Assembly: GCF_007988885.1 (NCBI RefSeq)
Contig: NZ_BJUZ01000002.1
Location: forward strand, 186,001 to 250,000
Length of the DNA: 64,000 bases
Reading direction: 5' to 3'
Source: Gluconobacter wancherniae NBRC 103581
GTDB lineage: Bacteria > Pseudomonadota > Alphaproteobacteria > Acetobacterales > Acetobacteraceae
A program made the translations under genes and the position numbers. Positions 14,832-30,207 of this stretch are shown here, piece by piece. The number at the start of each line of letters is the position of its first letter. Position 1 is the stretch's first letter. Below the pieces are notes generated by a model. The model saw only the letters and a program-made list of their open reading frames with translations, was not told the origin of the DNA and made no database searches.

Positions 14832-15593
14832 TTAGAGGTTTGACGCCGATTTCTGCTGCTTCCAGATCGCGGCAGCTTCATGGTCCAGAATAACCGTGCA
14901 GTTTGCGTGAAGCCTGATTGCGGAAGCGCTGATGTCTGGCGTCAGTGGGCCCAGAAGTGCTTCTGCAACGATGCGGGCTTTGCTTGAACCCGTGGCCACG
15001 AGCAGCAGTTCCCGTGCCTCTAGAATGGTGCCGACGCCCATGGTCAGGGCAGTGTGTGGGACGGCATCGGGCTGTCCACCAAACATTGCAGCGTTCTGTC
15101 GGCGTGTGACGTCATCAAGGGTGACGGGTCGTGTGCGCGTATCGAATGCGGAGGGCGGTTCGTTGAAGCCGATATGGCCCGTTTCACCAATGCCCAGGAG
15201 TTGTAGTCCTAAACCGCCTTCATTTTGAATTGCAGCCTCATATGCCGCGCATTCAGCAACAAGGTCCGAAGCTGTGCCATCAGGTACATGGACATGTTCC
15301 GGGCGCATGTTCACATGCCCGAAAAGGTGCTCCTGCATGTAGTGTCTGTAAGAGCGTGGATCTGTGGGGGACAGGCCGACATACTCATCGAGATTGAAGG
15401 AAGTGAGCTGTGAAAAATCGAGCTTTCCAGCCTGATGATCGGAAACCAGAAGCGCATAGATGCTTTCCATCGTGCGGCCGGTTGCCAGTCCAAGAACCGG
15501 GTGTGCGGCACCGCGAATGTGGTCTGCCAGAAAGGTGGCTGCCCGCTGGAAAGCGCTTGCTGTATCGGGCGCAATGATGACGTTGAGTGGCAT
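14832..15593 (-). CDS. nagB: Glucosamine-6-phosphate deaminase, NagB-I type
   Basis: Converts glucosamine 6-phosphate to fructose 6-phosphate and ammonia, the last step of amino-sugar breakdown. The 253-residue protein has the family blocks GLATGRTMESIY near residue 38, TSFNLDEYVGL near 68 and the active-site loop GIGETGHIGFNEP near 128. It also has RTRPVTLDDVTR. ATG 15593 has GGGGAGA behind it; the longer frame adds an unconserved basic leader. It ends the nagK to nagB operon on the minus strand and lies 32 bp after nagA. A second, unrelated SIS-type deaminase is encoded in the same operon, so the step appears doubled. Confidence 0.93.
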   Translation of the reverse strand: MPLNVIIAPDTASAFQRAATFLADHIRGAAHPVLGLATGRTMESIYALLVSDHQAGKLDFSQLTSFNLDEYVGLSPTDPRSYRHYMQEHLFGHVNMRPEHVHVPDGTASDLVAECAAYEAAIQNEGGLGLQLLGIGETGHIGFNEPPSAFDTRTRPVTLDDVTRRQNAAMFGGQPDAVPHTALTMGVGTILEARELLLVATGSSKARIVAEALLGPLTPDISASAIRLHANCTVILDHEAAAIWKQQKSASNL

Positions 15594-15625
15594 GGGTTTT
15601 CTCCCCGTTCTTGCGTATGAGACGG

Positions 15626-16732
15626 TTACAGACGCCGCTCGCCGCCGACCCACACTTCCAAGATGTTCAGCGTGGCATCAAGAATGGTGAAGTCCGCCAG
15701 AAAGTCAGGCGCGAGAACACCGCGGTCATGCAGGCCCAGATATTGTGCGGCATTGGAACTCACCAGACCTGCGGCCTTGGGAAGTGACATGCCTGATGCA
15801 ACAGCATTGCGGAGTGCCTGATCGAGCGTAAGAATGCTTCCTGCCAATGAGCCGTTTGGCAGTCGGACAACGCCATCCTGGATTGTGACATCCTGCCCGC
15901 CGAGCTGACTGGTGCCATCTGGTCCGCCGGTTCCGCGCATTGCGTCCGTTACGAACAGCAGGCGCTTGCCCATGACGCGTTCGACCAGACGGAAGCTGGC
16001 TGGATGCACATGGTGTGTATCGAAGATCATCTCGCCATAGGCGCTGTCACTGCACATGAGTGCGGTAACCGGGCCGGGCCTGCGTCCTTCAATGGGAGAC
16101 ATGGCGTTGAAAAGATGGGTGGCACCAATCGTGCCTCCCGCTGCGCAGACAGTGCAGATCGCGCGTTCCGCACCTTCGAAATCCGTTGTGGTGTGCCCGA
16201 GACTGACCCTGACACCCGCCCGTGAGAAACGGCGCATGGCATCATCCGCATGCTCCAGCTCGGGTGCTAGCGTAACCACCCGCACGCATCCTGTCGCAAG
16301 CGCTTCTTCCACTTTTTCGGGTGAAGGCGTGATGGCAAACGGGGGCTGCGCTCCGAGTTTGTGGGGGCTGACAAATGGTCCTTCCAGATGTGCACCATGC
16401 ACGCGCGGACCGTTTGCCACCCCGTTCCGGCAGACTTCAGCCACGGCACGGAGCGCGCACATGACATCATCCCAGGGGCGGGTGATTGTGGTGGGAAGGA
16501 TGGTGGTCGTGCCGTGGCCCATATGGAAGTGCGAAAGCGTTTCGATGGCGCTGACGCCGTCCATCGTATCTGCCCCACCACCGCCATGGACGTGGCCGTC
16601 GATAAAGCCCGGCAGGATATAGCGCTCGCTGCTGGTCCTGAGGGGATCAAGCGCGCGGATATGGGTGTCGAACGTGATGCGGCCGGGAAGGATGCGATCC
16701 GCAAGGACGAGCTGGCCGTCTAGGTAGGGCAT
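15626..16732 (-). CDS. nagA: N-acetylglucosamine-6-phosphate deacetylase
   Basis: Removes acetate from N-acetylglucosamine 6-phosphate, giving glucosamine 6-phosphate for the deaminases. The 368-residue amidohydrolase has metal ligands in IDGHVHGGGGAD near residue 45, LEGPFVSP near 115, the GHTTTDF block near 180, the HLFNAM block near 200 and the catalytic aspartate in FVTDAM near 265. Its ATG overlaps the stop of the transporter gene by one base (TGATG), so the two are translationally coupled. It sits in the order transporter, nagA, nagB. Length and motifs are normal. Confidence 0.95.
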   Translation of the reverse strand: MPYLDGQLVLADRILPGRITFDTHIRALDPLRTSSERYILPGFIDGHVHGGGGADTMDGVSAIETLSHFHMGHGTTTILPTTITRPWDDVMCALRAVAEVCRNGVANGPRVHGAHLEGPFVSPHKLGAQPPFAITPSPEKVEEALATGCVRVVTLAPELEHADDAMRRFSRAGVRVSLGHTTTDFEGAERAICTVCAAGGTIGATHLFNAMSPIEGRRPGPVTALMCSDSAYGEMIFDTHHVHPASFRLVERVMGKRLLFVTDAMRGTGGPDGTSQLGGQDVTIQDGVVRLPNGSLAGSILTLDQALRNAVASGMSLPKAAGLVSSNAAQYLGLHDRGVLAPDFLADFTILDATLNILEVWVGGERRL

Positions 16733-18009
16733 CAGGAGTGATCCAGTGGTAGAAGGCCCGTCTTTCCGAAGCGGCGGGCATAGAAGAGGATTGCAACGTA
16801 GGACGGGAGGACGAGTAGGGCGAACATGGCCTGAAAGCCGACGAAGGGTTTGAGGGCGACATAAATCTGAGGGACGACCGCGCCGCCACTATATGCCATG
16901 ACCAGAAATGCTGATGCGAGTGGCGTCCATGCTCCCGCGCCACGGATGGCGATTGGGAAGAGGGTTGGCATCATCATGGCGTTTGTGGCCCCTAGCAGCG
17001 CCACGCACATGACAGACGGATAGCCATGCGTGAGAAAGGCGGCCACGGTCAGGCAGAAGCCACCTATGCACGCAAACTCCAGAAAGCGCTCCTGCGAGAT
17101 CAGGCGGGGGATGACCACGATCCCCGTCATGTAACCTGCCAGCATTCCTGCCAGTGTGAGGGACGTAAAGAATTTGGTTTGGCTGAGCGGCAGGCCAAAG
17201 CCCTGCCCGTAAGTGCCAATGGCGTCTCCTGCCATGACTTCGACGCCAACATAGAGAAAAATTGCAATGATGCCGAATACTAGATGTGGCCGAAAAACGC
17301 GGTTTTTCTGATCTGGAAGGCCTGGCAGAGAAGGGGCTTCAAGTTCGGGTAAGGGAAAAAATATGATCGCGCATGCAGCGATCAGCAGAACGACAGCCAT
17401 GCCCATGTAGGGCGCATAAATTGCCTGCACAAAGTGTGCGAGAATGGTATCGCGCGTGGCTGCGTCCGGGGCCTGCTCCGCTTTTTCAGCAACGCTGCCG
17501 ATATCGCCCATGACTACGGTGGCAAGAACGATCGGAGCCAGGATACCGGCAAATTTGTTGCATACGCCCATGATTGCAATGCGCTGTGCCGCGCGGTTCT
17601 GCGGGCCGAGAAGGCTCACCAGCGGATTGATGACGACCTGCATCAGTGAAAGACCGGCGCCTAGAACAAGCAGGCCAGTTAGAGCACCTCCATAGGAACG
17701 CATGGTGACGAACTGCCCGAACAGTGCAACGCCCACAGCGCATAGGGCCAGCGATCCGGAAAGCCCCTTACGCAGACCCAATTTGCGGGCCAGCACGGAG
17801 GCAGGTAGCGAGAAAAAGAAATAGGAAAGATAAAAGACCATCGGCACAAGAAAAGCGCTGACGTCCCCAAGCGAAAATGCAACGCGGACGAACGTGATGA
17901 GCGGCCCGTTGATCCAGGTTACGAACCCGATCATGAAGAAAATACAGGCTGCCAGCCCCAGAGGGGCCAGCCCGTAGCGGCCAGTCAAACTGTCGGGAGA
18001 GTGCATCAT
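16732..18009 (-). CDS. nagP: Sugar MFS transporter, NagP/FucP type
   Basis: A 425-residue twelve-helix permease of the FucP/GluP branch of the major facilitator superfamily. The first helix begins AACIFFMIGFVTWINGPLI, which is the signature region of this branch, and the MGVCNKFAGILAPI segment near residue 145 is also typical. In Shewanella such a permease, NagP, brings N-acetylglucosamine across the inner membrane unphosphorylated. The adjoining kinase, nagA and deaminase genes make that the best guess here. It does not use the PTS route. Fucose or glucose as substrate cannot be excluded from sequence. It overlaps nagA by one base. Confidence 0.87.
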   Translation of the reverse strand: MMHSPDSLTGRYGLAPLGLAACIFFMIGFVTWINGPLITFVRVAFSLGDVSAFLVPMVFYLSYFFFSLPASVLARKLGLRKGLSGSLALCAVGVALFGQFVTMRSYGGALTGLLVLGAGLSLMQVVINPLVSLLGPQNRAAQRIAIMGVCNKFAGILAPIVLATVVMGDIGSVAEKAEQAPDAATRDTILAHFVQAIYAPYMGMAVVLLIAACAIIFFPLPELEAPSLPGLPDQKNRVFRPHLVFGIIAIFLYVGVEVMAGDAIGTYGQGFGLPLSQTKFFTSLTLAGMLAGYMTGIVVIPRLISQERFLEFACIGGFCLTVAAFLTHGYPSVMCVALLGATNAMMMPTLFPIAIRGAGAWTPLASAFLVMAYSGGAVVPQIYVALKPFVGFQAMFALLVLPSYVAILFYARRFGKTGLLPLDHS

Positions 18010-18059
18010 GGTCTTGAAACTCCACGGACCCCACAGGGATCCGGTGTCGACAGGGGCGT

Positions 18060-19013
18060 TCAGGAAATCGTCACGACTTTCGTCAGGTGTCTGGGTGCCA
18101 GTGTGTCCAGGCCTTTGGCGCGCGCCACGTACTCGCCCAGCATCTGAAGGGCAGGCAGAACCACAAGCGGTCGCGTTTCTGCATCGCTTTTAACGGTCAT
18201 TGAAATCGTGCCCGGTCCTCCAATTCCGATAACCCGCGCGCCTTTTGCCATCAGCTCAGTGGCGAGCAGGCTTTCCTCCTCCAATGTCTCAGGGTGATAG
18301 AGGAAAATGACGAGTGAGTTTTCGTCGATCAGACTTATGGGCCCATGGCGGTATTCTAGTGGGTGATGCGCTTCGGTCTGGCTCAGACTCATTTCCTGAA
18401 GCTTAAGTGAGCCTTCCCGGGCCACGCCGTACAGGGCACCGCCACCGAGAAAAACAAAATGCGTGCGCCCTGCTATTATTTCGGCGAGACGTGGTTCGAT
18501 GTCATTCAGGAGGTTTTCGGCAGTCGAAGTCGTGCTGGGTGTTACGGAAATTCCAGCATAGCGCAGACCCATCAGTAGCATCAGGCTGGCTGATGCGGTC
18601 ATGACGATGCCTTCCTCGGGGTGTGTCTCGGCCATCACGACAGTGTCTGCGTTTTCAGCAAGGCTGGTGCTTTCGGCGCATGTAAATGCGGTAACGTGCA
18701 GGCCGTGTGCTCGGCTGGCCGCTGCGGCTGCGACTGTTTCGGTAGATTCACCGCTGCGTGAAAGTGCCAGAATTCTGGGGTTCAGCGCTGTGGGTACGTA
18801 ATCGCCCGGGCGTCTGGTCCATTCGTTTCCCGCCACGGCGCGGGCGAAAAAGCCCTTTCGGTTGAGTGTGTCTGCAATCGAATCAGCTATGTGGACAGAT
18901 GTGCCACACCCCACCACGACATGGACTGTGCCTGCCTCAGGGCGGCCTACATTCTGACTGACCTTGTTCCATAGGGGAAACTGTTCGCGGATCCCGCGTT
19001 CCGTGGCGTTCAT
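18060..19013 (-). CDS. SIS-domain glucosamine-6-phosphate deaminase, NagB-II type
   Basis: A 317-residue protein with two SIS domains, related to the isomerase half of GlmS. The first has VVVGCGTSVHIADSIADTL near residue 33 and LALSRSGESTET near 83. The second has VFLGGGALYGVAREGSLKLQEMS near 198 followed by HHPLEYRHGP. There is no glutaminase domain, so it would release ammonia rather than make amino sugar, as in the NagB-II deaminases of Shewanella. It lies between nagK and the transporter in the same operon. An AgaS-like role on another amino sugar is possible. The same operon ends with an ordinary NagB-I gene. Confidence 0.85.
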   Translation of the reverse strand: MNATERGIREQFPLWNKVSQNVGRPEAGTVHVVVGCGTSVHIADSIADTLNRKGFFARAVAGNEWTRRPGDYVPTALNPRILALSRSGESTETVAAAAASRAHGLHVTAFTCAESTSLAENADTVVMAETHPEEGIVMTASASLMLLMGLRYAGISVTPSTTSTAENLLNDIEPRLAEIIAGRTHFVFLGGGALYGVAREGSLKLQEMSLSQTEAHHPLEYRHGPISLIDENSLVIFLYHPETLEEESLLATELMAKGARVIGIGGPGTISMTVKSDAETRPLVVLPALQMLGEYVARAKGLDTLAPRHLTKVVTIS

Positions 19014-19026
19014 GATGATATGCCTC

Positions 19027-19983
19027 TCAGGAGCTTAGGCCAGATTCATGCAGATTGTGCGCAAGTCTGTCGATCCATTCCGGTTCACAGTTCCATCCGG
19101 CCAGTCGTGCGGCGGAAAGAAGTCCTCCACCCGCGGGGGGGAGGATGGGTTTGATCGGTGCCCCACACTGTCTGGCGATTGCGTTGCGGAGGAAGGGGCT
19201 CTGCAAGGTGCCACCTGCGTAGCTCCAAGGCATTGTGATACCTGCGAAGCGGGTGCGGATGGCTTTAATATGGGCCGCGAGTTCGTCCGCTGCGTCTGTC
19301 ATCAAGTGTTGGGCAGTCAGGTTTCCGCTTTCGGCCATTCCGGACACGATGCGTGCCAGGGCTGCCACGGAGGAGCGTTCATGTGTCAGGGACGCATACC
19401 ATTCCAGAAGTGCTGAGCCACAGAGCTCAGGATTTTTGGGTAGACCAGCACCCTCGCAGAATGGCGCCAGAAAATTTGCGTCTGCTGTATTTCTGCCATC
19501 AAGAATTTCCGTGAGAAGGGAGAGCGCTTTTCGCCCGATCCAGAACGCGCTTCCCTCATCCCCGAAGAGGGCACCCCAGCCACCGACCCTGCACTGTCTC
19601 TTGTGGCCGTCCGTTCCCCATGCCATCGAACCTGTGCCGGAGAGCAGCAGAATGCCACTTTTGCCGGCAAAAGCTCCCGTGCAGGCCATATCCACATCGT
19701 TTTTGATAAAAAACGGTACGGATATGAGCGAATTTACAGCTTCATCCTGTCGTGATCGGAGCGTTTCGCTTTCTCCATACCCCGCAAGGCCAAACGAAAC
19801 AGCTTCAAGAGACGAGGGTAGATTACCGAGAAGGTTTTCGAGAACAGAGCGCCACAACGGCTGGTCAAAAGGGTTTGAGCCAGCACCGCGCCTGATTTCG
19901 ACAATTGTGGAATCCTGCCGTGCGATGACCAGAAGCGTTTTTGTGCCTCCACCGTCCATTGCTGCAATACAGGGTTCGCTCAC
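19027..19983 (-). CDS. nagK: N-acetylglucosamine kinase, BadF/BadG ATPase family
   Basis: Phosphorylates N-acetylglucosamine with ATP after uptake. The 318-residue protein starts with the ASKHA phosphate-1 loop AMDGGGTKTLLV, has the LLLSGTGSMAWG phosphate-2 loop near residue 110 and a DEGSAFWIGRKAL segment near 140. The YAGGTLQSPFLRNAI block near 265 completes the fold. It is the first gene of the minus-strand nag operon, 13 bp ahead of the SIS gene, and diverges from the DeoR-type regulator over 173 bp. The substrate could also be glucosamine. The family assignment is secure, the substrate is from context. Confidence 0.87.
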   Translation of the reverse strand: MSEPCIAAMDGGGTKTLLVIARQDSTIVEIRRGAGSNPFDQPLWRSVLENLLGNLPSSLEAVSFGLAGYGESETLRSRQDEAVNSLISVPFFIKNDVDMACTGAFAGKSGILLLSGTGSMAWGTDGHKRQCRVGGWGALFGDEGSAFWIGRKALSLLTEILDGRNTADANFLAPFCEGAGLPKNPELCGSALLEWYASLTHERSSVAALARIVSGMAESGNLTAQHLMTDAADELAAHIKAIRTRFAGITMPWSYAGGTLQSPFLRNAIARQCGAPIKPILPPAGGGLLSAARLAGWNCEPEWIDRLAHNLHESGLSS

Positions 19984-20156: not shown

Positions 20157-20918
20157 TTGGTCGCCGACCGTCTGACGCAGATCCGCCGTTATCTCTACCT
20201 GAACGGCATGACCGGCGTGCATGAACTTGCCGAAAAAATAGACGCATCATTGGCGACTGTAAGGCGTGATCTCCAGAGACTGGAAGATGAAGGTATTATC
20301 GTCCGAACGCATGGCGGTGCGGCGATTGCGGAATCGAAGGACCGGGAAATCGCTTTTGAGACCCGCGAGAAACTCAATATCGAAAACAAGCGTGCAATAG
20401 CGCAGGCTGCATTTCCGCACCTGAAAAAGGGGTCTGCGGTGTTTTTTGATTCCGGGACGTCTGTTCTTCAGTTTGCGCGCCTCCTCCGGCTCGACCCCAT
20501 GCCCCTGAAAGTATTTTCCAACAATATTCTGATTGCAGAAATGCTCAGCGGAGTTTCCGGAATTGATATGACCCTGCTCGGCGGAAAGGTGCGGCATACC
20601 CAGCGCAGTATTGTGGGTTGGCTGGCGGAGCAGGTGATTGGCGGATTGTGGTTCGATCAGGCCTATCTCGGAGCCCACGCTGTTCAGTCCGATGATTCCA
20701 TTGCAACGCCGGATGGGGAAGAAGCCAGCCTCAACGCGGCGATTATGCGGCGGACTGATGAGTGTCATCTTCTTGCTGATCATACAAAATTCGATCGTCA
20801 TTCGACATACAGAGTGGGTGGCCTCAATCAGCTTTCGCATATATTTACGGATACGAAACTTGATCCTGCGCGGCTGCGCGCGCTCAGGGAACGGGGGCAC
20901 AAGATTATCGTGGCCTAG
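20157..20918 (+). CDS. DeoR-family transcriptional regulator
   Basis: A 253-residue sugar-phosphate-responsive repressor. The N-terminal winged helix shows VHELAEKIDASLATVRRDLQRLEDEG near residues 20-45 and the wing RTHGGA. The C-terminal DeoR sensor domain has FFDSGTSVLQFAR near 95, LLGGKVRHTQRSIVG near 140 and the LGAHAV block near 170. The start is TTG 20157 with AAAGGAG eight bases upstream and no better in-frame ATG. It is divergent from nagK, so control of the nag operon is likely. Its stop is only 16 bp before hpxZ, so it may also be transcribed with and control the ureide genes. Confidence 0.9.
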   Translation: MVADRLTQIRRYLYLNGMTGVHELAEKIDASLATVRRDLQRLEDEGIIVRTHGGAAIAESKDREIAFETREKLNIENKRAIAQAAFPHLKKGSAVFFDSGTSVLQFARLLRLDPMPLKVFSNNILIAEMLSGVSGIDMTLLGGKVRHTQRSIVGWLAEQVIGGLWFDQAYLGAHAVQSDDSIATPDGEEASLNAAIMRRTDECHLLADHTKFDRHSTYRVGGLNQLSHIFTDTKLDPARLRALRERGHKIIVA

Positions 20919-20934
20919 ACCGACAAGGATGACG

Positions 20935-21315
20935 ATGCTCAACGATCCTGAAACTCTGGCAGAAATCACGTCACTCGCGGACCTTTATGAAAAAGCTTTG
21001 GGAGACAATGATCTGGGCACGCTTGATGCGCTCTTTCATGATGGCCCGGAGACGGTTCGTTATGGTGTGGGAGAGAATCTTTACGGTTTCGAGGAAATTC
21101 ACGATTTTCGGAAGCGTCGGCCTGGTGGCTCTCCTCCGCGCAAAGTTCTGCGGCGTGTGATTACGGCCATCGGACGAGATGTTGCTGTTGTCGATCTTGA
21201 GTTTCAGCGTCTTGGTGGGACGAAAATTGGGCGGCAGAGCCAGACCTGGTTTCGCACTGGGCAGGGTTGGAAGATTCTGGCGGCACATGTTTCTCTGATG
21301 GCTGACGTCTCCTGA
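20935..21315 (+). CDS. hpxZ: AtzH/HpxZ-like NTF2-fold protein (DUF3225)
   Basis: A 126-residue protein of the family that includes HpxZ of the Klebsiella oxalurate cluster and AtzH, a 1,3-dicarboxyurea hydrolase of cyanuric acid breakdown. Features are the helix LADLYEKALGDNDLGTLDALF, then YGVGENLYGFEEIHDFRKRRP and the closing strand RQSQTWFRTGQGWKILAAHVSLM. ATG 20935 has AAGG six bases ahead; ATG 20929 is the alternative. It is followed by an AtzG-like gene and an AtzE-like gene, matching the hpxXYZ and atzEGH sets. A role in carboxylated urea intermediates is inferred from these relatives. Confidence 0.85.
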   Translation: MLNDPETLAEITSLADLYEKALGDNDLGTLDALFHDGPETVRYGVGENLYGFEEIHDFRKRRPGGSPPRKVLRRVITAIGRDVAVVDLEFQRLGGTKIGRQSQTWFRTGQGWKILAAHVSLMADVS

Positions 21316-21360
21316 TCAGCGCTAAAAAACTCTCTGTTGGATAAGGAAGTAGGGCACGCG

Positions 21361-21537
21361 ATGAAAGACGACATGGAAATCCGAATTCTGGCTGCGGCGA
21401 GTGGTCTGACGGAACTGCCTGCTGAATTTTATCCCGGCATACGGTTGAATCTGGATCTGTTGCGGAGCTATGGAGCGCTTGTGGAAGGGTTGGAACTCTC
21501 AGACCGTCTAGAGCCTGCGTTCGAGTACGAGCCATGA
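21361..21537 (+). CDS. hpxX: AtzG/HpxX-like small subunit (DUF4089)
   Basis: A 58-residue protein with the helical pattern of AtzG, containing LTELPAEFYPGIRLNLDLLRSYGALVEGLEL and ending in an acidic tail. In cyanuric acid degradation AtzG binds AtzE and is needed for a working amidase, in the manner of GatC with GatA. The start at ATG 21361 is preferred over TTG 21337. Its stop overlaps the ATG of the amidase gene (ATGA at 21534-21537), which fits a fixed subunit ratio. It is easily missed because of its size. Confidence 0.85.
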   Translation: MKDDMEIRILAAASGLTELPAEFYPGIRLNLDLLRSYGALVEGLELSDRLEPAFEYEP

Positions 21538-22871
21538 GCACCGGACTGGAACTGAAGACGTGTGATATCGCGGCACTTGTCCGGAGTGGAAAGCGCTCTG
21601 CGGTTGATGTGACGCAGGCTGTTCTCGCAGATATTGAGGCTCGGGATAGTACACTCAACTGCGTCACACGTCTGCTGCATGAGCGTGCGCTGCAAGCTGC
21701 GGCAGAAGTGGATCGCAAGGTTGCAGCGGGCGAAGACCCAGGTGCGCTGGCGGGTGTACCGTTTGGCATCAAGGACCTCTTTGATGTGCAAGGACAGATA
21801 ACGACTGCTGGTTCAGTTGTTTTACGGAATGATCCGCCTTCGGATGAAGATGCGGTTCTGGTTGCTCGCCTTTTGGAGGCAGGTGCAATTCCGGTAGCGC
21901 TGACGAACATGGACGAGTTTGCATACGGCTTTGCGACGGATAACGCCCATAATGGCGTGACCCGCAATCCGCATGCCCCTGACCGGCTTGCGGGTGGGTC
22001 TTCAGGCGGTTCAGCTGCTGGTGTTGCTGCGAGTATGTTTTCGCTTGGTCTGGGGTCCGATACGAACGGCTCCATTCGTGTTCCCGCTTCATTGTGTGGG
22101 GTATGGGGGTTACGTGCCACGCAGGGCCGTCTTTCCGTAGAGGGCAGTTATCCGTTTGTGGCGAGTCTCGACACCGTTGGCCCATTTGCGGACAGTGCAT
22201 CTGGTTTACAGGCGTGCTTTGAAGCTCTTACCAAAGAGACGATGGTGCCCGTCGATACGACAAATCTGCGGATAGCGCGGCTGGGTGGATGGTTTGCCGA
22301 TAATATGTCTGCACCTATGCAGGCAGCGGTTGACGGTTTGGCGGAGTTTCTGGGAGCAGGCACAGTTGTGGAGTTGCCGGAGGTGGCTCGGGCGCGTGCT
22401 GCGGCCTTTATTATCAGTGCATCCGAAGGGGCGGCTTTGCATCTGGACCGCTTGAAAGAACGTGCTGCGGATTATGATCCTGCCGTTCGGGATCGTCTGC
22501 TGGCGGGTGCATTGCTGCCCGCTACGTTGATTTTCAAGGCACATCGCCTCCGCAACTGGTTCAGGGCGGAAATGCACAAGGCATTTACCGATGTCGATGT
22601 TCTGATTGCTCCGGCTGTGGTTGGGGAAAGCCCGCGTTTCGACGAACCGTTGATTGAGGTTGGTGGGGAAATGGTGTCGGCGCGCGCCAATCTGGGTCTG
22701 TATACGCAGCCTCTGACGCTTGCAGGTTTTCCGGTTCTGACGGTGCCTTTGGTTGTACCAGGGTTGCCATTAGGGGCTCAGCTTGTTGCCAGGCCGGGGC
22801 GGGAGGATATTCTTCTAGCCCTCGGGCGTCGGCTCGAAGAAAGCGGTATCGCGTTGGCGCGGCGCGTTTGA
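21534..22871 (+). CDS. hpxY: AtzE/HpxY-like amidase
   Basis: A 445-residue amidase-signature enzyme. The catalytic lysine is in FGIKDLFDV near residue 80, the cis-serine in GGSSGGSAAG near 155 and the nucleophile serine in DTNGSIRVPASLCG near 180. It belongs with AtzE (1-carboxybiuret hydrolase) and HpxY, rather than with GatA, because the small AtzG-like partner gene overlaps its start. In Klebsiella the corresponding gene is needed for oxalurate use, and here the aminotransferase at 28987 would supply oxalurate. The substrate is therefore probably oxalurate, which is inference from context. Confidence 0.87.
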   Translation: MSTGLELKTCDIAALVRSGKRSAVDVTQAVLADIEARDSTLNCVTRLLHERALQAAAEVDRKVAAGEDPGALAGVPFGIKDLFDVQGQITTAGSVVLRNDPPSDEDAVLVARLLEAGAIPVALTNMDEFAYGFATDNAHNGVTRNPHAPDRLAGGSSGGSAAGVAASMFSLGLGSDTNGSIRVPASLCGVWGLRATQGRLSVEGSYPFVASLDTVGPFADSASGLQACFEALTKETMVPVDTTNLRIARLGGWFADNMSAPMQAAVDGLAEFLGAGTVVELPEVARARAAAFIISASEGAALHLDRLKERAADYDPAVRDRLLAGALLPATLIFKAHRLRNWFRAEMHKAFTDVDVLIAPAVVGESPRFDEPLIEVGGEMVSARANLGLYTQPLTLAGFPVLTVPLVVPGLPLGAQLVARPGREDILLALGRRLEESGIALARRV

Positions 22872-22876
22872 TTTAG

Positions 22877-22905
22877 CACCATGGGAGAGTGTGCCTCCCG
22901 TGGTG
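22877..22905 (+). terminator. Hairpin behind the amidase gene
   Basis: An 11-bp stem (CACCATGGGAG with CTCCCGTGGTG, one T-G pair), seven-base loop, six bases after the stop. The downstream sequence is AT-rich but without a T run, so termination is likely but not certain. Confidence 0.55.
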
Positions 22906-22924
22906 AAACATTATCCCATAGAGC

Positions 22925-22943
22925 GTTATTGATAATCGTTTGC
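22925..22943. promoter_or_regulatory. Probable Fur box upstream of the iron cassette
   Basis: By my count 14 of 19 bases match the classical Fur consensus GATAATGATAATCATTATC, including a central TGATAATC. It lies 117 bp upstream of the DUF3649 gene, the first gene of a cassette whose families are usually iron-regulated. No experimental support is available. Confidence 0.55.
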
Positions 22944-23059
22944 ATTTACGTCCTCCGCACATTAGGTTCCGCTTTCGCGTTTCCGGGGCTTGATGCGTGC
23001 AGATGTCGATTGTTCGAATTATTAATCTGAGTCTTGTTTGTGACGGGTGGAACGCCTGA

Positions 23060-23326
23060 ATGGCGCAGGACCGGTCTGAATATTTCGGACGTAGGGTAGC
23101 GCTGGCCTGTGCGCTGTATGCGTCAATGTTGCTGCTGTTTTCGAGCCTTTGTGGGTTCTGGGGCGCAGAGGGGCAACAGGCGTTCAGTATCGCGGGTGTA
23201 TTGTTTGTCCCGTGTCTGATGAGTTGGGCGTTTATTGCAACTGGTTTGCGTATCCCTGCATGGACCTGCGGCCTCATGCTCTTCGTAGCGGCTTCTCTTT
23301 TGGGTATTAGGCTCTGGGTAGGCTGA
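23060..23326 (+). CDS. DUF3649-like small inner-membrane protein
   Basis: An 88-residue protein with three hydrophobic segments at about residues 12-32, 40-62 and 66-86. It resembles the small iron-uptake membrane proteins that precede PepSY permeases. Its stop overlaps the ATG of the PepSY gene (TGATG). Function is unknown; iron acquisition is inferred from the operon and the upstream Fur-like site. Confidence 0.72.
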   Translation: MAQDRSEYFGRRVALACALYASMLLLFSSLCGFWGAEGQQAFSIAGVLFVPCLMSWAFIATGLRIPAWTCGLMLFVAASLLGIRLWVG

Positions 23327-24819
23327 TGGATATTTCTCTCCGTCGGCGCATGGGTTGGCTGCATGAATGGGGTGGTCTGCTGTTTGGCTGGCTGCTGTTT
23401 CCGGTCTTCGTGACGGGTACGCTGGCAATGTTTGATACCGAAATCACGCGCTGGATGCAGCCTGAAGTCCATCTTGTTCGTGGCGTTGCTCCCACGGATG
23501 AAGCTCTGGACCGTGTGGCTGAACGACTGCGGGCGGCGGCCGCGCGTGGAGAGAGCGGATCATTTATCCTGCTGCCACAACCTCGCGATCCATCTTTACG
23601 AGTCCTGAAATATAACGGCCGGGCGTTCATGGGGGATCTTGTGGACCCTCGCGACGGACGTGTGCTGTCAGTACGCCAAACGATAGGTGGGCAGTTCTTC
23701 TTTGGGTTTCATTTCACGTTGTGGCTTGGTCCTTTTTGGGGGGCGGAGCTCGTTTGTTATGCAGCTCTTGGCATGTGCATTACCTTGATTTCAGGCATCA
23801 TGTTGCATCTGAGGCAGATCCTGCCGGATTTCTTTACGTTCAGGCCTGCTTCGACGCCGACGCGATGGTGGCTGGACATGCATGTCCTTATGGGCATCGC
23901 CGTATTGCCATTTCATATCATGATTGCCTGTACTGGCCTGACTGTTGCAGCGAACGCATTTCCTGTGCGGGATCTGGTGGATTTTGTTTCAGCCAAGCCG
24001 TCTCCTGCGCCCGTGGCCGCTTCTGCTCCCATATCTGAGGAGAGCTGGGCTCCCACAGCTCCGCTTGGTCCGTTGATCCGGCAGGCGGAGGCGCTTTCAG
24101 GTGCTCCTGTCCGATATGTTCTGTTTTCGCCGGGTATGGCCACGGCTTACATGGAAAACACCGGCCATCTTTCCCTGTCTAATGCGTGGGTGACGTTCGA
24201 TGCCCATGACGGACATCTGGTGTCGAAAAGCCCACCGGATGGTTGGGTGGCGAAGACAAACAAGTTACTGAACGGTCTGCATCTGGCGACGAATGTCACG
24301 CTTGGGCTGCGCTGGCTGTATTTCTTCGGCGGGATATGTTCGACGCTGATGATGGGAAGCGGGTTGGTTTTTTATACCGCCAAACGCCGGGCAAAACTGG
24401 AGCGTGGAAAGTCGGGTCCCAGCGCTTTTCTTTCGATTGTTGAAGCCATCAATGTTGGTGTTGTTGGTGGGGTGCCTTTAGCCTGTGTGGTCTATCTCTG
24501 GGCCAACCGCCTGCTTCCGGTAGCTTTGGAGCATCGGTCCAGAGACGAGGTTGCTGCGTTTTTCTTGGTCTGGGGCATAAGCTTTGCGCTGGGAGTATTG
24601 ATGGTCCGGTCGCAGGCTCGTCATCTCGTATGGATTTGCGTCTTGTCGCTATGGGCGTTTCTGGGGCTGGGTCTACCGTTTTTGGATGCTGCGACTGCAT
24701 CAGTGCTCCGTGTGGGAGGCATTGACCGCGTGCTTTATGCCACCGTGGATTTAACAGCTTTTGCGTTTGGGTTCTGCGCATTGATTGGGGCTCTGCGGCT
24801 TGGGCGTAGAGCGGCGTAA
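23326..24819 (+). CDS. PepSY-domain inner-membrane protein, PiuB-like
   Basis: A 497-residue membrane protein of the PepSY-associated transmembrane family. It has an N-terminal helix at about 12-35, a periplasmic PepSY region, and helices with conserved histidines (FHFTLWLGPFWG near 130, LDMHVLMG near 185, LNGLHLATNVTLG near 318). More helices form the C-terminal third. Members of this family occur with siderophore receptors and are thought to reduce or move iron across the inner membrane. It overlaps its upstream and downstream partners by one base each, so the three genes are one operon. No receptor gene is next to it. Confidence 0.85.
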   Translation: MDISLRRRMGWLHEWGGLLFGWLLFPVFVTGTLAMFDTEITRWMQPEVHLVRGVAPTDEALDRVAERLRAAAARGESGSFILLPQPRDPSLRVLKYNGRAFMGDLVDPRDGRVLSVRQTIGGQFFFGFHFTLWLGPFWGAELVCYAALGMCITLISGIMLHLRQILPDFFTFRPASTPTRWWLDMHVLMGIAVLPFHIMIACTGLTVAANAFPVRDLVDFVSAKPSPAPVAASAPISEESWAPTAPLGPLIRQAEALSGAPVRYVLFSPGMATAYMENTGHLSLSNAWVTFDAHDGHLVSKSPPDGWVAKTNKLLNGLHLATNVTLGLRWLYFFGGICSTLMMGSGLVFYTAKRRAKLERGKSGPSAFLSIVEAINVGVVGGVPLACVVYLWANRLLPVALEHRSRDEVAAFFLVWGISFALGVLMVRSQARHLVWICVLSLWAFLGLGLPFLDAATASVLRVGGIDRVLYATVDLTAFAFGFCALIGALRLGRRAA

Positions 24820-25148
24820 TGCATGTATTCTTTGTAGCATCCGGGCTGATTGTTGGAGCGTGTTTCTGTCATGCCGGGAGCCTGACACACCCGCGCCGTA
24901 GCGCTGGATTTACGTCTCGGTGGGGGAAGCCCATGAAATTGCGTGGGTATTGTCTTGAAGCAGCGCTCCTCGCGGTTGCACTCGTATTGTGTCTTGTCAC
25001 TTCGCCGGTGTTCGGTTTTTTGGACTGGATGATGCTGTTGTCCGTGGGATGTGTGGGCAGTGCATTCTGGATCGGGTTTGCTGCCCGGAATTATTTCCGA
25101 ACAGCGCCCGTACTGGGTGTGATGCTTGTGCTTCTGGGTTGTGTGTAG
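24819..25148 (+). CDS. DUF3325-like small membrane protein
   Basis: A 109-residue protein with an N-terminal hydrophobic segment and two further helices near residues 48-68 and 70-105, of the DUF3325 type that often closes PepSY iron operons. Its ATG overlaps the PepSY stop (TAATG). It ends six bases from the convergent hpxW-like gene with no visible terminator between them, so the two transcripts may collide. Confidence 0.72.
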   Translation: MHVFFVASGLIVGACFCHAGSLTHPRRSAGFTSRWGKPMKLRGYCLEAALLAVALVLCLVTSPVFGFLDWMMLLSVGCVGSAFWIGFAARNYFRTAPVLGVMLVLLGCV

Positions 25149-25154
25149 GTGGTA

Positions 25155-26753
25155 TTACCAGCCTGCTACGGCGCCATCACTTCTGGGATCTGTGGCGCCT
25201 TCCAGTCGGCCATTCTCGTGCCGTATGATTGCACCGGCGTGCCCCATCAGCATTGAGAGGGCCGGAAGCTCTTCAATTTCATGTCCGGCAGTGCGTAATG
25301 CGGAAATGACGGCCGGATCAAATCCCGGTTCTATTTTTAGGGACGTGCTGCCATGACCCCATATGCGTCCTAGCAGCCAACGCGGGCGGGAAATGGCTTC
25401 CTGTAGGGGCGTGCCGTAATGGATATGGCGGCTGAAAATTGTCGCCTGCGTCTGTGGTTGGCCTTCGCCGCCCATCGTTCCGTAGACCATTAATCGTCCA
25501 TCGTTGAGGCGGGCTGCTGCCGGGTTCAGTGTGTGGAAGGGTTTTGCGCCCGGTGTAAGGGCGTTCCAGCCTCCTGATGTCAGACGGAAGGAGCTGCCGC
25601 GATTTTGCCAGAGCAGCCCGCTTTCTGGCAGCATCACGCCAGAGCCGAACTCGAAATACAGACTTTGGATCATGCTTACGGATAGGCCCGAGCTGTCGAT
25701 CGCTCCCATCCATGTCGTATCGCCCCATTGGGTTTTTTCGTTCCACGGATAGGCGTGATTCATGGAAATACGATCGGCCATATCCGTGAGGCTGGTGGGG
25801 TCACTCAGGAGTGCGCGGGCATTTGCTTCTGATGTGGGGCGACCATCGACCTCTGTGTTGCGGTAGCGAAAGGCCTGTTTTGTGGCTTCGACTATGCCGT
25901 GAATATGTTCGTAGCTGTCTACATTTTCACGGTTCAGGCCAAGGCGGTCAAAGAGTGACAGAATGAGCAGGGAAGCGACGCCCTGAGTTGGTGGTGCGGT
26001 GTTGTAGAGGCGACCCCAGGAAGTTTCTGTCTCAAGGGGGAGGCCGGTTGTTGCTTGATGGTTCAGGAGATCTGACAGGCGGACGGGGCTTCCCGCAGCT
26101 GCCAGATCGGCAGCGATCATGCGCGCTAGCGGGCCTTCATAAAAGCTCCGCAGGCCATGTGTGGCGAGGTGCCTGAGGGTTTGTGCAAGGGCTGGGTTTT
26201 TGCGGATGTCGCCCTCGACCAGAGGAATGGTGTCTGACAATAATGCCTGACGAAAGGCATTGTTGTCAGAAAGTTCGTGTTTTTTTTCTCGCAACAGGCC
26301 AGCTTCGCTGGACGTCACCACGCGGCCGTTTTCGGCGTAGTGAGTGGCATCTCGCAACAACCGCTCCAGCGGGAGGGGTGTTTGTATTTTGGAGCTCTCA
26401 CGAAGAGCGGCTTCCCAGCTCGATACAGCTCCCGCCACGGTGTTTGCTGCGAACCCGCCCCGCCAAGGGATCGTTTTGTGTCCGGCTTGCTCGTAAAAAT
26501 CGTTGGTAGCGGCTTGTGCGAGCTTTCCGCAGGCATCAATGGCAAGTGTGCGTCCGTCTGGAAACGCAATGAGCCAGAAAGCATCTCCACCGAGGCCCGT
26601 CATGTGTGGATAGACGGCTGAGAGTGTTGAAGCTGTGGCGATAATAGCCTCGATGGCGGTGCCGCCATCCTTCAGAACGTCCAGACCGGCCTGACTGGCC
26701 AGATGGTGTGGGGATGTGACCATCCCGCGTAATGAGTTTGAAGTATGCACCAT
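25155..26753 (-). CDS. hpxW: HpxW-like oxamate amidohydrolase (gamma-glutamyltransferase family)
   Basis: A 532-residue Ntn-hydrolase of the gamma-glutamyltransferase family, expected to cleave itself before a nucleophile threonine. The likely nucleophile is in QWGDTTWMGAID near residue 345. The N-terminal GLGGDAFWLIAF and the GSSFRLTSGG and GTMGGEGQPQTQ blocks also fit. There is no signal peptide, unlike periplasmic glutathione-cleaving members. This and the neighbouring hpxXYZ-like and allantoate genes point to HpxW, which in Klebsiella turns oxamate into oxalate and ammonia. A general gamma-glutamyl role is the alternative. It is the downstream partner of the LysR gene, 11 bp away. Confidence 0.82.
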   Translation of the reverse strand: MVHTSNSLRGMVTSPHHLASQAGLDVLKDGGTAIEAIIATASTLSAVYPHMTGLGGDAFWLIAFPDGRTLAIDACGKLAQAATNDFYEQAGHKTIPWRGGFAANTVAGAVSSWEAALRESSKIQTPLPLERLLRDATHYAENGRVVTSSEAGLLREKKHELSDNNAFRQALLSDTIPLVEGDIRKNPALAQTLRHLATHGLRSFYEGPLARMIAADLAAAGSPVRLSDLLNHQATTGLPLETETSWGRLYNTAPPTQGVASLLILSLFDRLGLNRENVDSYEHIHGIVEATKQAFRYRNTEVDGRPTSEANARALLSDPTSLTDMADRISMNHAYPWNEKTQWGDTTWMGAIDSSGLSVSMIQSLYFEFGSGVMLPESGLLWQNRGSSFRLTSGGWNALTPGAKPFHTLNPAAARLNDGRLMVYGTMGGEGQPQTQATIFSRHIHYGTPLQEAISRPRWLLGRIWGHGSTSLKIEPGFDPAVISALRTAGHEIEELPALSMLMGHAGAIIRHENGRLEGATDPRSDGAVAGW

Positions 26754-26764
26754 GTCGTCGGCTT

Positions 26765-27646
26765 TCAGGTCTGGGATGTCATGACGGCGGGAGCGATATG
26801 GTCCTGCAGGACCTGTGTCAGAAGTTCCTCGGGACCCTGGGCTGTCTGGTGGCGTGTTGAGGCAATGAATTCCACGTCTGGAAGGGCTGGCAGTATGCCC
26901 GACGCGCAGGGGGTTATGAGTTTGTTGCCCGTGAGGAAGGCGGGTTGAGCGGTGATGCCATAACCTGCGCGCACGGCTGCCAGAATAGCGCTGAGGCTGT
27001 CACTCGTGAACGCCAGATGCCAAGGACGGCCTGCGCGATTCAAGGCTTCTATGGCCAGACGTCTGGTGACGCTTCCATCAGGGAACGTGACGAGAGGCAG
27101 GGAGTCCTCTGAGGATGGAAGCATGCCGTCGGGTGAGTACCAGCGCAGGCGTTCCGTCCAGAGTTTGCGGCCATGTGTGTCTGTGGAGCGGCGCATCCCG
27201 CACAGCAGGTCGATGGAGGATTCTTCTAGGAGCTTTGCGAGGTTTGCACTGAGGCCCACTGTCAGAGTGACTTTAAGCAAGGGGTGTGCAGCGCGAAACA
27301 TCCCCAGAATTTCGGGGAAACGAGTCAGCAGAAGATCTTCTGTAACGCCCAGGCGGATTGTGCCTCGTGGTGTGTCTTTGCTGAAGCGTGAGAGGATTTC
27401 GTCCTCGCACTGGAGCAGTTTTCGCGCGAGAAGAATCAGTTGCTGCCCGCTTTCCGTCAGGCGCACGCTTTTCGTGCTGCGGGCCAGAAGGCGTGTACCT
27501 AATACATCTTCCAGCTTGCTGATATGCTGGCTGATCGTGGACTGGCTGACACCCTGCATCTGCGCGGCAGATGTGAAATGCAGCGTCTCCGCAACGGCGA
27601 GAAACGATCTCAGATGAAACGGATCAAGATGCGACTGATCATTCAT
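26765..27646 (-). CDS. LysR-family transcriptional regulator
   Basis: A 293-residue regulator with the usual N-terminal helix-turn-helix, LRSFLAVAETLHFTSAAQMQGVSQSTISQHISKLE, at residues 10-45 and an effector-binding domain behind it. The frame is open far upstream, but ATG 27646 gives the standard LysR start; ATG 27670 adds eight residues. Neither has a good ribosome site. It is divergent from the allantoate amidohydrolase gene and 11 bp ahead of hpxW, so it probably controls both sides. The co-inducer would be a ureide or oxalurate, which is inference. Confidence 0.9.
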   Translation of the reverse strand: MNDQSHLDPFHLRSFLAVAETLHFTSAAQMQGVSQSTISQHISKLEDVLGTRLLARSTKSVRLTESGQQLILLARKLLQCEDEILSRFSKDTPRGTIRLGVTEDLLLTRFPEILGMFRAAHPLLKVTLTVGLSANLAKLLEESSIDLLCGMRRSTDTHGRKLWTERLRWYSPDGMLPSSEDSLPLVTFPDGSVTRRLAIEALNRAGRPWHLAFTSDSLSAILAAVRAGYGITAQPAFLTGNKLITPCASGILPALPDVEFIASTRHQTAQGPEELLTQVLQDHIAPAVMTSQT

Positions 27647-27751
27647 ATAAATATGTGAAGGCAAATTCATTGGCCGGTCAACTTGATCTGATGCCGGTAT
27701 GAGCGCAAACTTCCACCGAAAATGACACTTGGCGCACAGACGGGAGAGAGC

Positions 27752-28990
27752 ATGACCAGTCATGGGGGAAGGGCGGTCGAAAGATGCAGGATTCTGGCGA
27801 GCGCACCCTTCAGCGAAATGGAAGGCGGCCTGTTTCGTTTCTGGCTTGGAGATGCATACCGCAAAGCCCTCGAGCAGGTGCGGATATGGATGGAAGAAGC
27901 GGGGATGTCTGTGCGCATCGATGCTGCCGGCTCTATCATCGGTCGCTATGAGGCGCTGACACCTGATGCGCCTGCCCTGATGACGGGCTCCCACCTTGAT
28001 ACTGTGCGCAATGGTGGCGCCTATGACGGTATTTTGGGCGTAATGCTCGGGATCGAGATGGTTGCAGCCTTGAATTCAGACGGAATTCGGATGCCTTTCG
28101 CGATAGAAGTGGTGGGTTTTGGAGATGAGGAAGGGTCGCGTTTCCCGGCGCCAATGCTGTGTTCGCGCACAATGGCCGGGCAGGTGGATACCGTTCCATC
28201 CGCTATCGTAGACGCTCAAGGCAAGAGTATTGCTCAGGCCATGGAAGATTACGGGCTGGACCCGGCGCTTCTTAAAAATGCGGTGCGTCAGAAGGGCGAG
28301 ATTCTGGCATTTATTGAAGCGCATATTGAGCAGGGCCCCTGCCTGGAAGCAGAAGACGGGTCTTTGGGTGTGGTCAGTGCAATTGCTGCTCAGACCCGTC
28401 AGCGTGTGCGGATTTATGGGCAGGCAGATCATGCGGGAACCACCCCCATGACATTACGGCGTGATGCGCTGGCCGCCGCGGCAGAGGTGGTTTCCGCAGT
28501 TGAGCGGATTGGTGTTGCTTCGGGGGAGAACCATGTTGCTACCGTAGGCTTTCTGGAGGTGCATCCGAATGTCTCGAACGTCATTCCGGGGGAAGTACGT
28601 TTTTCTCTGGACATGAGAGCTGAAACGGAAGCCCAGCGTGACCGGATGGTACTGCAAATTCAGGAAGAAATACGGAATATCGTAGCACGCCGTGGGCTGA
28701 AAGCGTCATTTGAGCAGAGCCATTTTCTGCCGAGTGCTGCGTGTACGCCTGAGATGGTGAGTCAGCTTGAAAAGGCGGTTTCCAGTGTTACAGGGCGTCC
28801 TGCTTCCCGCCTTCTGAGCGGTGCCGGACATGATGCGATGGCGATGGTCCATCTGTGTCCGATGGCCATGCTGTTTATTCGCAGTCCTGGCGGTCTGAGC
28901 CATCATCCGGATGAAGATGTCCGGGTTGAAGATGTTGAGCTGGCCCATCGTGCCCTGCTTGCTTTTGTCAAGGAGTTCCACTTGTCGTGA
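27752..28990 (+). CDS. allC: Allantoate amidohydrolase (M20 zinc family)
   Basis: A 412-residue metal-dependent amidohydrolase of the allantoate/N-carbamoyl amino acid hydrolase group. Metal ligands are in TGSHLDTVRNGGAYDGILG near residues 80-95, the acidic GFGDEEGSRFP near 120-130, EAHIEQGPCLE near 190 and the closing HHPDEDV near 390. ATG 27752 is favoured by GGGAGAG just upstream over ATG 27722. It would convert allantoate to ureidoglycine with release of CO2 and ammonia. The next gene overlaps its stop and encodes the enzyme that uses ureidoglycine, which makes allantoate more likely than another carbamoyl substrate. Confidence 0.85.
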   Translation: MTSHGGRAVERCRILASAPFSEMEGGLFRFWLGDAYRKALEQVRIWMEEAGMSVRIDAAGSIIGRYEALTPDAPALMTGSHLDTVRNGGAYDGILGVMLGIEMVAALNSDGIRMPFAIEVVGFGDEEGSRFPAPMLCSRTMAGQVDTVPSAIVDAQGKSIAQAMEDYGLDPALLKNAVRQKGEILAFIEAHIEQGPCLEAEDGSLGVVSAIAAQTRQRVRIYGQADHAGTTPMTLRRDALAAAAEVVSAVERIGVASGENHVATVGFLEVHPNVSNVIPGEVRFSLDMRAETEAQRDRMVLQIQEEIRNIVARRGLKASFEQSHFLPSAACTPEMVSQLEKAVSSVTGRPASRLLSGAGHDAMAMVHLCPMAMLFIRSPGGLSHHPDEDVRVEDVELAHRALLAFVKEFHLS

Positions 28991-30207
28991 CCCTGTCTTT
29001 CAGCCAGATTGATCCTCCTTCCCGTCTGTTAATGGGGGCGGGTCCTGCCAACGTGCATCCCCGTATCCTGCGCGCCATGGCAGCGGACGTGATTGGGCAG
29101 ATGGACCCGGAAATGACGGCCTACATGGATGAGACAATGGCGCTCTACCGTGAGGTTTTCCGGACGAAGAACAAGCAGACGCTGTTGGTCAACGGATCTG
29201 CGCGTTCGGCGATTGAGGCAGCGCTTGTCTCGCTCGTCACTCCGGGCATGAAGGTTGTTATTCCGCGTATTGGCCGATTTGGTCTGCTGCTGACAGAAAT
29301 TGTATCCCGATGTGGGGGTGTGCCTTGCACGATTGATGTTGAGTGGGGGCAGGTCGTGCGCCCTGAACAAGTTGAAGCGGCGATCATTGAGCATAGGCCG
29401 GGGCTGGTTGCGGCTGTTCATGGGGATACATCCACCACGACCGCGCAGCCTCTCGCCGACATCGGGGCGATCTGTCGTCGTCATGATGTGCTGTTCTATG
29501 TTGATGCAACGGCTACGCTGGGTGGTATGGAGTTTGAAACTGATGCCTGGGGCATCGACGTTGCGACGGCAGGGCTTCAGAAATGTCTGGGTGGGCCGCC
29601 GGGCTCTGCGCCTATCACGCTATCGGATCGCGCAGTGGCGGCTGTTCTTGCGCGACGCCATGATGAGGCTGGAATTGCGACTGGCCAGCCGCAGGGTGAG
29701 GGGCCGGTCATCCATTCGAATTATTTCGATCTGGCGATGCTGATGAATTACTGGTCCCCTGCCAGAATGAATCACCATACCGAGGCAACCTCCATGCTCT
29801 ATGCCTCACGCGAAGCTGCGCGGATTGTGGTAGAGGAAGGTGTCGCTGCGCGTGTTGAGCGCCATACGCGTGCGGGGCGCGCAATGGTGGCGGGGCTGCG
29901 GGCGATGGGTCTGCAGATCTATGGGGACGATGCGACCCGAATGTCCAACGTAACGGGGGTCTGGGTTCCTGAGGGTGTGGACAACGCCCGGGTGCGGGAG
30001 CAGATGCGGCAGGATTTTGAGATCGAAATCGTCTCGTCTTTCGGGCCATTGACCGGCAAGATCTGGCGGATTGGTGCGATGGGTGTGAACGCTCAGAAAC
30101 ACAAGGTCCTGCTGACCCTTGGAGCATTTGAGGCTGTGTTGGCCGGAGAAGGTTTCAAGCTGCCACGTGGTGCGGGTGTGGACGCTGCAAGGGAAGCCTG
30201 GGGCTAG
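28987..30207 (+). CDS. pucG: (S)-ureidoglycine-glyoxylate aminotransferase, PucG type
   Basis: A 406-residue fold-type I PLP enzyme of the alanine-glyoxylate aminotransferase group. The glycine-rich start LLMGAGPANVHPRIL, VNGSARSAIEAAL near residue 70, the aspartate in FYVDATATLGG near 172 and the PLP lysine in TAGLQKCLGGPPGS near 198 are present. The SNYFDL segment near 242 is typical of the group. GTG 28987 overlaps the allC stop (GTGA). Moving the amino group of ureidoglycine to glyoxylate gives oxalurate and glycine, and oxalurate is the expected substrate of the hpxXYZ-like genes at 21 kb. Plain serine or alanine-glyoxylate transfer is the alternative. Confidence 0.86.
   Translation: MTLSFSQIDPPSRLLMGAGPANVHPRILRAMAADVIGQMDPEMTAYMDETMALYREVFRTKNKQTLLVNGSARSAIEAALVSLVTPGMKVVIPRIGRFGLLLTEIVSRCGGVPCTIDVEWGQVVRPEQVEAAIIEHRPGLVAAVHGDTSTTTAQPLADIGAICRRHDVLFYVDATATLGGMEFETDAWGIDVATAGLQKCLGGPPGSAPITLSDRAVAAVLARRHDEAGIATGQPQGEGPVIHSNYFDLAMLMNYWSPARMNHHTEATSMLYASREAARIVVEEGVAARVERHTRAGRAMVAGLRAMGLQIYGDDATRMSNVTGVWVPEGVDNARVREQMRQDFEIEIVSSFGPLTGKIWRIGAMGVNAQKHKVLLTLGAFEAVLAGEGFKLPRGAGVDAAREAWG

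Follow-up and report, generated by a model that had tools for sequence, protein, structure and literature searches.

A probable lower half of a Klebsiella hpx-type purine nitrogen-salvage pathway in the acetic acid bacterium Gluconobacter wancherniae

From which substrate would a cluster of hpx-like genes draw nitrogen in an acetic acid bacterium, and how far would it carry the breakdown? The question is raised by the window, a stretch of 64,000 nucleotides of Gluconobacter wancherniae NBRC 103581 (contig NZ_BJUZ01000002.1, G000:C2:186001-250000; genome of 2.78 Mb, 99.88% complete), in which genes for a putative allantoate amidohydrolase (AAH), a putative ureidoglycine-glyoxylate aminotransferase (UGXT) and relatives of HpxX, HpxY, HpxZ and HpxW lie together. 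We read these genes, with a probability of about 0.86, as the lower half of a purine nitrogen-salvage pathway that is aerobic, complete and of the Klebsiella hpx type, on the grounds of family assignments and gene order. The features concerned, including the open reading frames (ORFs) interspersed among them, are as follows.

20929..21315, + strand: HpxZ (AtzH-like), putative N-carboxyoxamate decarboxylase (NF033625, PF11533, AtzH pocket; second ATG at 20935)
21361..21537, + strand: HpxX (AtzG-like small subunit; weak PF13318 match, 4-base overlap with HpxY; alternative TTG start at 21337)
21534..22871, + strand: HpxY (AtzE-family amidase), putative oxalurate amidohydrolase (NF006631, TIGR02715, 6c62)
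23060-25148: three membrane-type ORFs, one of them PepSY_TM (Pfam), between HpxY and HpxW
25155..26753, - strand: HpxW, putative oxamate amidohydrolase of the N-terminal-nucleophile type (5hft, Klebsiella copy)
26765..27646, - strand: LysR regulator, start at 27646 or 27670 (Pfam HTH_1, LysR_substrate)
27722..28990, + strand: AAH, M20 family (NF006775; alternative ATG at 27752)
28987..30207, + strand: UGXT, class V, pyridoxal phosphate-dependent type (3nnk, 3isl)

The individual assignments were examined against family models and solved structures. HpxZ passed the NCBIfam model NF033625, 'oxalurate catabolism protein HpxZ' (154.8 bits, cut-off 135), and scored 175.8 bits against Pfam PF11533 (cut-off 27) when its ORF was read from 20932. 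HpxY passed both NF006631 of the AtzE family (580.4, cut-off 461) and TIGR02715 (538, cut-off 425.75), with 6c62 as its best solved relative; in passages of PMC12625717, HpxY is named oxalurate amidohydrolase in the text and oxamate carbamoyltransferase in a figure legend. AAH passed the allantoate amidohydrolase equivalog NF006775 (588.9, cut-off 479), and by far the best solved relatives of the aminotransferase were 3nnk, a ureidoglycine-glyoxylate aminotransferase (E 1e-142), and 3isl (E 4e-116). The best solved relative of HpxW was 5hft, deposited as a gamma-glutamyltranspeptidase, which we take to be the Klebsiella oxamate amidohydrolase; the protein is 52.5% identical to a Klebsiella pneumoniae copy over 99%. 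The small chain of 5hft starts opposite HpxW residue 346, a Thr, and HpxW is thus predicted to cleave itself before Thr346, as N-terminal-nucleophile enzymes would. An earlier note on this DNA had named these genes at this place, and the family and structure matches bore it out for HpxZ, HpxY, HpxW, AAH and the aminotransferase, HpxX being weak when taken alone but supported by its position and its overlap with HpxY; the LysR gene and the three membrane-type ORFs go unmentioned in the note. The route that it had drawn from allantoate through oxalurate and oxamate to oxalate is likewise supported by these assignments and by the synteny described below.

In the proposed pathway, guanine deaminase, xanthine dehydrogenase, a probable urate-hydroxylating flavoprotein, 5-hydroxyisourate (HIU) hydrolase, 2-oxo-4-hydroxy-4-carboxy-5-ureidoimidazoline (OHCU) decarboxylase and the allantoinase PuuE would supply allantoate, which AAH would convert to ureidoglycine, ammonia and CO2. 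The aminotransferase would then pass the amino group of ureidoglycine to glyoxylate, giving glycine and oxalurate, and HpxX-HpxY would release ammonia from the terminal amide of oxalurate, leaving N-carboxyoxamate, an unstable compound. Decarboxylation of the latter by HpxZ would yield oxamate, which HpxW would hydrolyse to oxalate and ammonia, so that three of the four nitrogens of allantoate would end as ammonia, one as glycine and none as urea. Each reaction is inferred from homology, those of HpxZ and the flavoprotein being the least certain. Since oxalyl-CoA decarboxylase, the only oxalate enzyme searched, scored over its cut-off in none of the 26 genomes of the genus used for the narrower counts, oxalate is probably an end product.

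The earlier note, seeing no urate oxidase, allantoinase or permease in the window, had left the entry substrate open; a search of the whole genome found guanine deaminase, xanthine dehydrogenase, PuuE, OHCU decarboxylase and HIU hydrolase. The allantoinase and urate genes for which that note had wanted the genome searched, namely those for PuuE, OHCU decarboxylase and HIU hydrolase, lie at C2:70.7-76.5 kb (stretch L130), together with genes for guanine deaminase, a LysR regulator and a protein binding flavin adenine dinucleotide (FAD). In this upper locus, guanine deaminase (TIGR02967, 565, cut-off 375), PuuE (TIGR03212, 516, cut-off 425) and OHCU decarboxylase (TIGR03164, 167, cut-off 96) all passed their models, and the HIU hydrolase is 73% identical to a copy in the genome G218 that passes its own. 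The OHCU decarboxylase gene, at C2:75.7 kb, stands 130 kb from the lower cluster, and the enzyme was found in 25 of the 26 genomes of the genus, that of the window included. Xanthine dehydrogenase is encoded near C2:482-485 kb; its large subunit scored 1305 against TIGR02965 (cut-off 849.5), and its small subunit, truncated by the end of the locus, reached 380 where the cut-off is 467. XdhC, a TonB receptor and an NCS2-type permease are encoded beside it (C2:482-491 kb). With these upper genes in the same genome, the entry point, predicted to be purines degraded via urate to allantoate, appears largely settled.

For the oxidation of urate, no match to uricase (Uox, PF01014) or PuuD (PF06181) was found in the window genome, HpxO not being among the families searched. 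The FAD protein encoded in the upper locus matched only general FAD/NAD(P)-binding families, and a PDB search gave it no relative. Across 249 genomes of the family, the sample used for the co-occurrence counts given here, orthologues of at least 55% identity (a hand-set cut that leaves out weaker homologues) occurred in 45. All 45 carried OHCU decarboxylase, which was present in 92 of the 249 overall, and none carried Uox or PuuD; among the 47 OHCU-positive genomes without the FAD protein, 25 had PuuD, seven had Uox and 15 had neither. These co-occurrence counts carry no correction for relatedness, and eight genomes in which PuuD was matched only at E values poorer than 1e-50, none of them in the flavoprotein set, were scored as PuuD-negative. 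Always with OHCU decarboxylase and never with Uox or PuuD, the FAD protein is distributed as a substitute urate oxidase would be. Passages of PMC4562309 describe HpyO of Xanthomonas as a urate hydroxylase using FAD and a reduced nicotinamide dinucleotide, NAD(P)H. The FAD protein is probably a urate hydroxylase, perhaps HpyO itself. The protein family is large: the window genome has a 41% identical paralogue at C1:863 kb, and in the genome G023 a 46% identical homologue adjoins OHCU decarboxylase.

Both halves of the pathway were found joined elsewhere. The locus comparison covered 73 named loci fetched by HpxW, 72 of which were counted as having HpxW. In 17 of the 73, from Komagataeibacter, Novacetimonas and Gluconacetobacter entanii, the genes for the flavoprotein, HpxY, HpxW, AAH, UGXT, PuuE, OHCU decarboxylase and HIU hydrolase stand in the order just given, all on the same strand and spanning 8.9-9.0 kb, and HpxX was detected in 14 of these arrays. 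The order UGXT-AAH-LysR-HpxW-HpxY-HpxX is shared by all 20 named Gluconobacter loci, with LysR present and HpxX beside HpxY in each and HpxZ in six; their HpxW proteins, 69-72% identical to that of the window, are its closest named relatives. Outside the family, Novosphingobium PP1Y packs HpxY-HpxW-UGXT-PuuE-HpxZ-OHCU decarboxylase-flavoprotein-HIU hydrolase into about 8 kb, although AAH had no match anywhere in its 20-kb stretch. Nine Asaia/Swaminathania loci hold HpxY and HpxW together with upper genes. OHCU decarboxylase was found in 32 of the 34 genomes with an HpxW orthologue, against a base rate of 92/249.

As for the HpxZ step, the protein retains all nine pocket residues of AtzH. The nine are kept in all 14 relative loci with full coverage (two of which, L034 and L056, represent one genome), and a fifteenth, partial relative keeps all five that are visible. 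The HpxZ counterpart of AtzH Tyr22 is a tyrosine at residue 20 or 18, depending on which start is chosen. Such conservation is fitting for an N-carboxyoxamate decarboxylase acting in parallel to AtzH on 1,3-dicarboxyurea; AtzH carries the identical residues, however, and the pocket therefore cannot separate the two substrates. According to passages of PMC6219798, AtzE takes off the nitrogen of the terminal amide, with AtzH proposed to act next. Given the resemblance of oxalurate to 1-carboxybiuret, the same two steps would yield N-carboxyoxamate and then oxamate. According to section 14 of that paper, gene contexts offer little evidence for the specific function of AtzH, and the term carboxyoxamate was not found in the open-access literature searched, most subscription papers lying outside the search. 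That both proposals hold jointly, HpxZ being the N-carboxyoxamate decarboxylase and the FAD protein the enzyme with which acetic acid bacteria hydroxylate urate (resembling HpyO or, with lower likelihood, belonging to a further urate oxidase family), strikes us as evenly balanced between true and false.

Several observations weigh against the pathway as drawn. HpxX reached only 18.7 bits against PF13318 (cut-off 24) with no NCBIfam match, and the aminotransferase reached no NCBIfam cut-off. HpxZ was not found at the locus in 14 of the 20 Gluconobacter loci, even at E<=1, and was detected in none of the 17 Komagataeibacter-type arrays. Genome-wide, an AtzH-like gene occurred in 28 of 34 HpxW-positive genomes versus 122 of 215 others (150/249 overall), a modest association that leaves six HpxW-positive genomes without it; where present, it is sometimes far from HpxW, as in G215. 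Spontaneous decarboxylation could explain the loss of HpxZ. Within 10 kb, the nine Asaia/Swaminathania loci showed neither an aminotransferase nor an AAH at 40% identity; five of them do have an M20 match, at 32-34%. No dedicated transporter for allantoate or urate was found. In ten of the 72 HpxW loci, moreover, none of HpxY, AAH, UGXT, the flavoprotein, PuuE and OHCU decarboxylase was in the stretch, and eight of these have LysR-HpxW only, which means that HpxW can occur apart from purine genes. These eight pairs are in Acetobacter (L072, L073, L075-L077, L110, L120 and L124); L110 and L120 belong to strains with another HpxW locus (L115 and L101), and the pair may represent an additional HpxW whose role on oxamate is distinct.

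The conserved AtzH pocket, together with the identity of HpxY to AtzE (46.6%) and of HpxZ to AtzH (50%) of pADP-1, would also suit AtzG/E/H-like proteins acting on carboxybiuret or another biuret-type compound, their genes adjoining those for allantoate breakdown either coincidentally or as a module serving amide nitrogen in general. That plasmid carries the cyanuric acid operon atzDGEHF, in which E and H are homologous to HpxY and HpxZ and the G gene occupies the matching place. The window genome differs from it in having no allophanate hydrolase (AtzF) over the cut-off, AtzD not having been searched genome-wide, and in having purine genes instead. Its two sub-threshold allophanate hydrolase matches were HpxY itself and an amidase of 497 aa that is probably GatA, while four of the 26 genomes of the genus do possess the enzyme. 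A biuret role is further opposed by the recurrence of purine/ureide synteny across several genera: Gluconobacter, Komagataeibacter, Novacetimonas, Asaia, Novosphingobium and, on a plasmid, Zymomonas. The alternative of biuret or carbamoyl compounds that the earlier note had kept is weakened by the allophanate hydrolase result, and we regard it as very improbable.

HpxW could instead be a gamma-glutamyltransferase (GGT) or peptide hydrolase, in which case the pathway would stop at oxamate. Pfam places the protein in G_glu_transpept, public annotation often names its relatives gamma-glutamyltransferase, and a stretch of the Zymomonas mobilis plasmid pZM33 carries AAH, UGXT, HpxZ, HpxX and HpxY without HpxW. 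Nevertheless, HpxW stayed under the cut-off of the gamma-glutamyltransferase equivalog TIGR00066 (311.2, cut-off 357.85) and had 5hft as its nearest solved relative, and its family matches in the 249 genomes separate into orthologues of at least 53% identity and GGT-like matches at 31-38%, with a single 48% fragment (in G128) in the gap; the fragment and the GGT-like matches were left out of the orthologue set. In addition, passages of PMC3560190 describe the hpx operon and the mistaking of hpxW for ggt in alpha and gamma proteobacteria. This explanation thus has, in our estimate, just as slender a chance as a biuret role. A slightly better one, though still poor, is given to cleavage of oxalurate by HpxXY at its inner amide, which is chemically possible and would still produce oxalate, along with urea, leaving HpxZ and HpxW with other jobs. 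It is opposed by the AtzE precedent of terminal-amide removal with AtzH thought to follow, and by the co-occurrence of HpxW with the pathway, the oxamate amidohydrolase activity of its Klebsiella relative being reported in passages of PMC5270733.

If the purine route to oxalate is correct, acetic acid bacteria would convert purine nitrogen to ammonia, glycine and oxalate without urea, and the oxamate/oxalate branch, best known from Klebsiella, would extend to these organisms; the role of HpxZ, moreover, becomes directly testable from oxalurate. Acetic acid bacteria inhabit places with urate and ureides, such as insects and plants, and the route would accordingly matter for the recycling of nitrogen and the release of oxalate in such habitats. 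No description of allantoate or urate/purine catabolism in acetic acid bacteria was found in the open-access literature searched, a body that most subscription papers lie outside. The kind of pathway is already known; what is new would be its acetic acid bacterium version, the split arrangement, the connection with the upper genes and the roles proposed for two enzymes.

Among known systems, section 14 of PMC6219798 describes an Enterobacteriaceae cluster ggt-atzG-atzE-atzH with a LysR regulator, an ATP-binding cassette (ABC) transporter, a transaminase and allantoate amidohydrolase. This cluster, like Klebsiella hpxWXYZ, resembles the present one in its enzyme set and LysR regulator, whereas here the order is Z-X-Y, HpxW lies on the opposite strand in a LysR-HpxW pair, and the PepSY block separates HpxY from HpxW; the scan of ORFs at 9.1-39.4 kb of the window turned up no ABC transporter. 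Plasmid pZM33 (L143:4398-10317; AAH-UGXT-HpxZ-HpxX-HpxY) shares the Z-X-Y order and the AAH-UGXT pair, its proteins being 61% (UGXT), 55% (HpxY), 49% (AAH) and 49% (HpxZ) identical to those of the window. It differs in having all genes on a single strand and a LysR of the upper-locus type; HpxW is absent from the stretch, and genes for a DctA-type transporter and a porin lie upstream. The Komagataeibacter/Novacetimonas arrays share HpxY, HpxW, AAH and UGXT with the window genome, but they gather into a single 9-kb array a pathway that is here divided among separate loci.

Further observations were made around the upper genes. A xanthine-type permease gene follows the HIU hydrolase gene in G218 (L131:1643-3088) and is missing in the window genome, where L130:12498-12740 is AT-rich. 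An NCS1 permease and a second M20 hydrolase at G000:C1:49-52 kb, considered as allantoin permease and amidohydrolase, were rejected and assigned to pyrimidine breakdown, because genes with dihydropyrimidine dehydrogenase domains precede them and an amidohydrolase, probably a dihydropyrimidinase, lies on the other strand. In same-genus relatives, a Rieske (VanA_C) oxygenase gene lies in the purine locus (L037:13616-14692 and L133:7485-8525), and L035 and L036 have similar-sized, unscanned ORFs; MoCoBD_1 was matched in 22 of the 26 genomes of the genus and not in G054, G131, G180 or G268. The oxygenase is a possible HpxD-like replacement of xanthine dehydrogenase.

Within the lower cluster, the LysR gene is 11 bases from that of HpxW on the same strand and diverges from the AAH gene. 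The AAH and aminotransferase genes overlap by 4 bases, as do those of HpxX and HpxY, and a DnaB gene comes next after the aminotransferase gene on the opposite strand. The ORFs at 23060-25148 were considered as HpxX or HpxZ and rejected, being of membrane type, one of them PepSY_TM, and not lying between HpxY and HpxW in locus L034, where HpxW comes immediately after HpxY, on the opposite strand. At the other end, a DeoR-family regulator gene (20157-20918) shares the strand of HpxZ, stops 10 bases short of it and faces amino-sugar-type genes at 14832-19983 (BadF, SIS, MFS, amidohydrolase and glucosamine isomerase families). The order BadF-SIS-DeoR-HpxZ is conserved in L034, and co-transcription of the DeoR gene with HpxZXY is possible.

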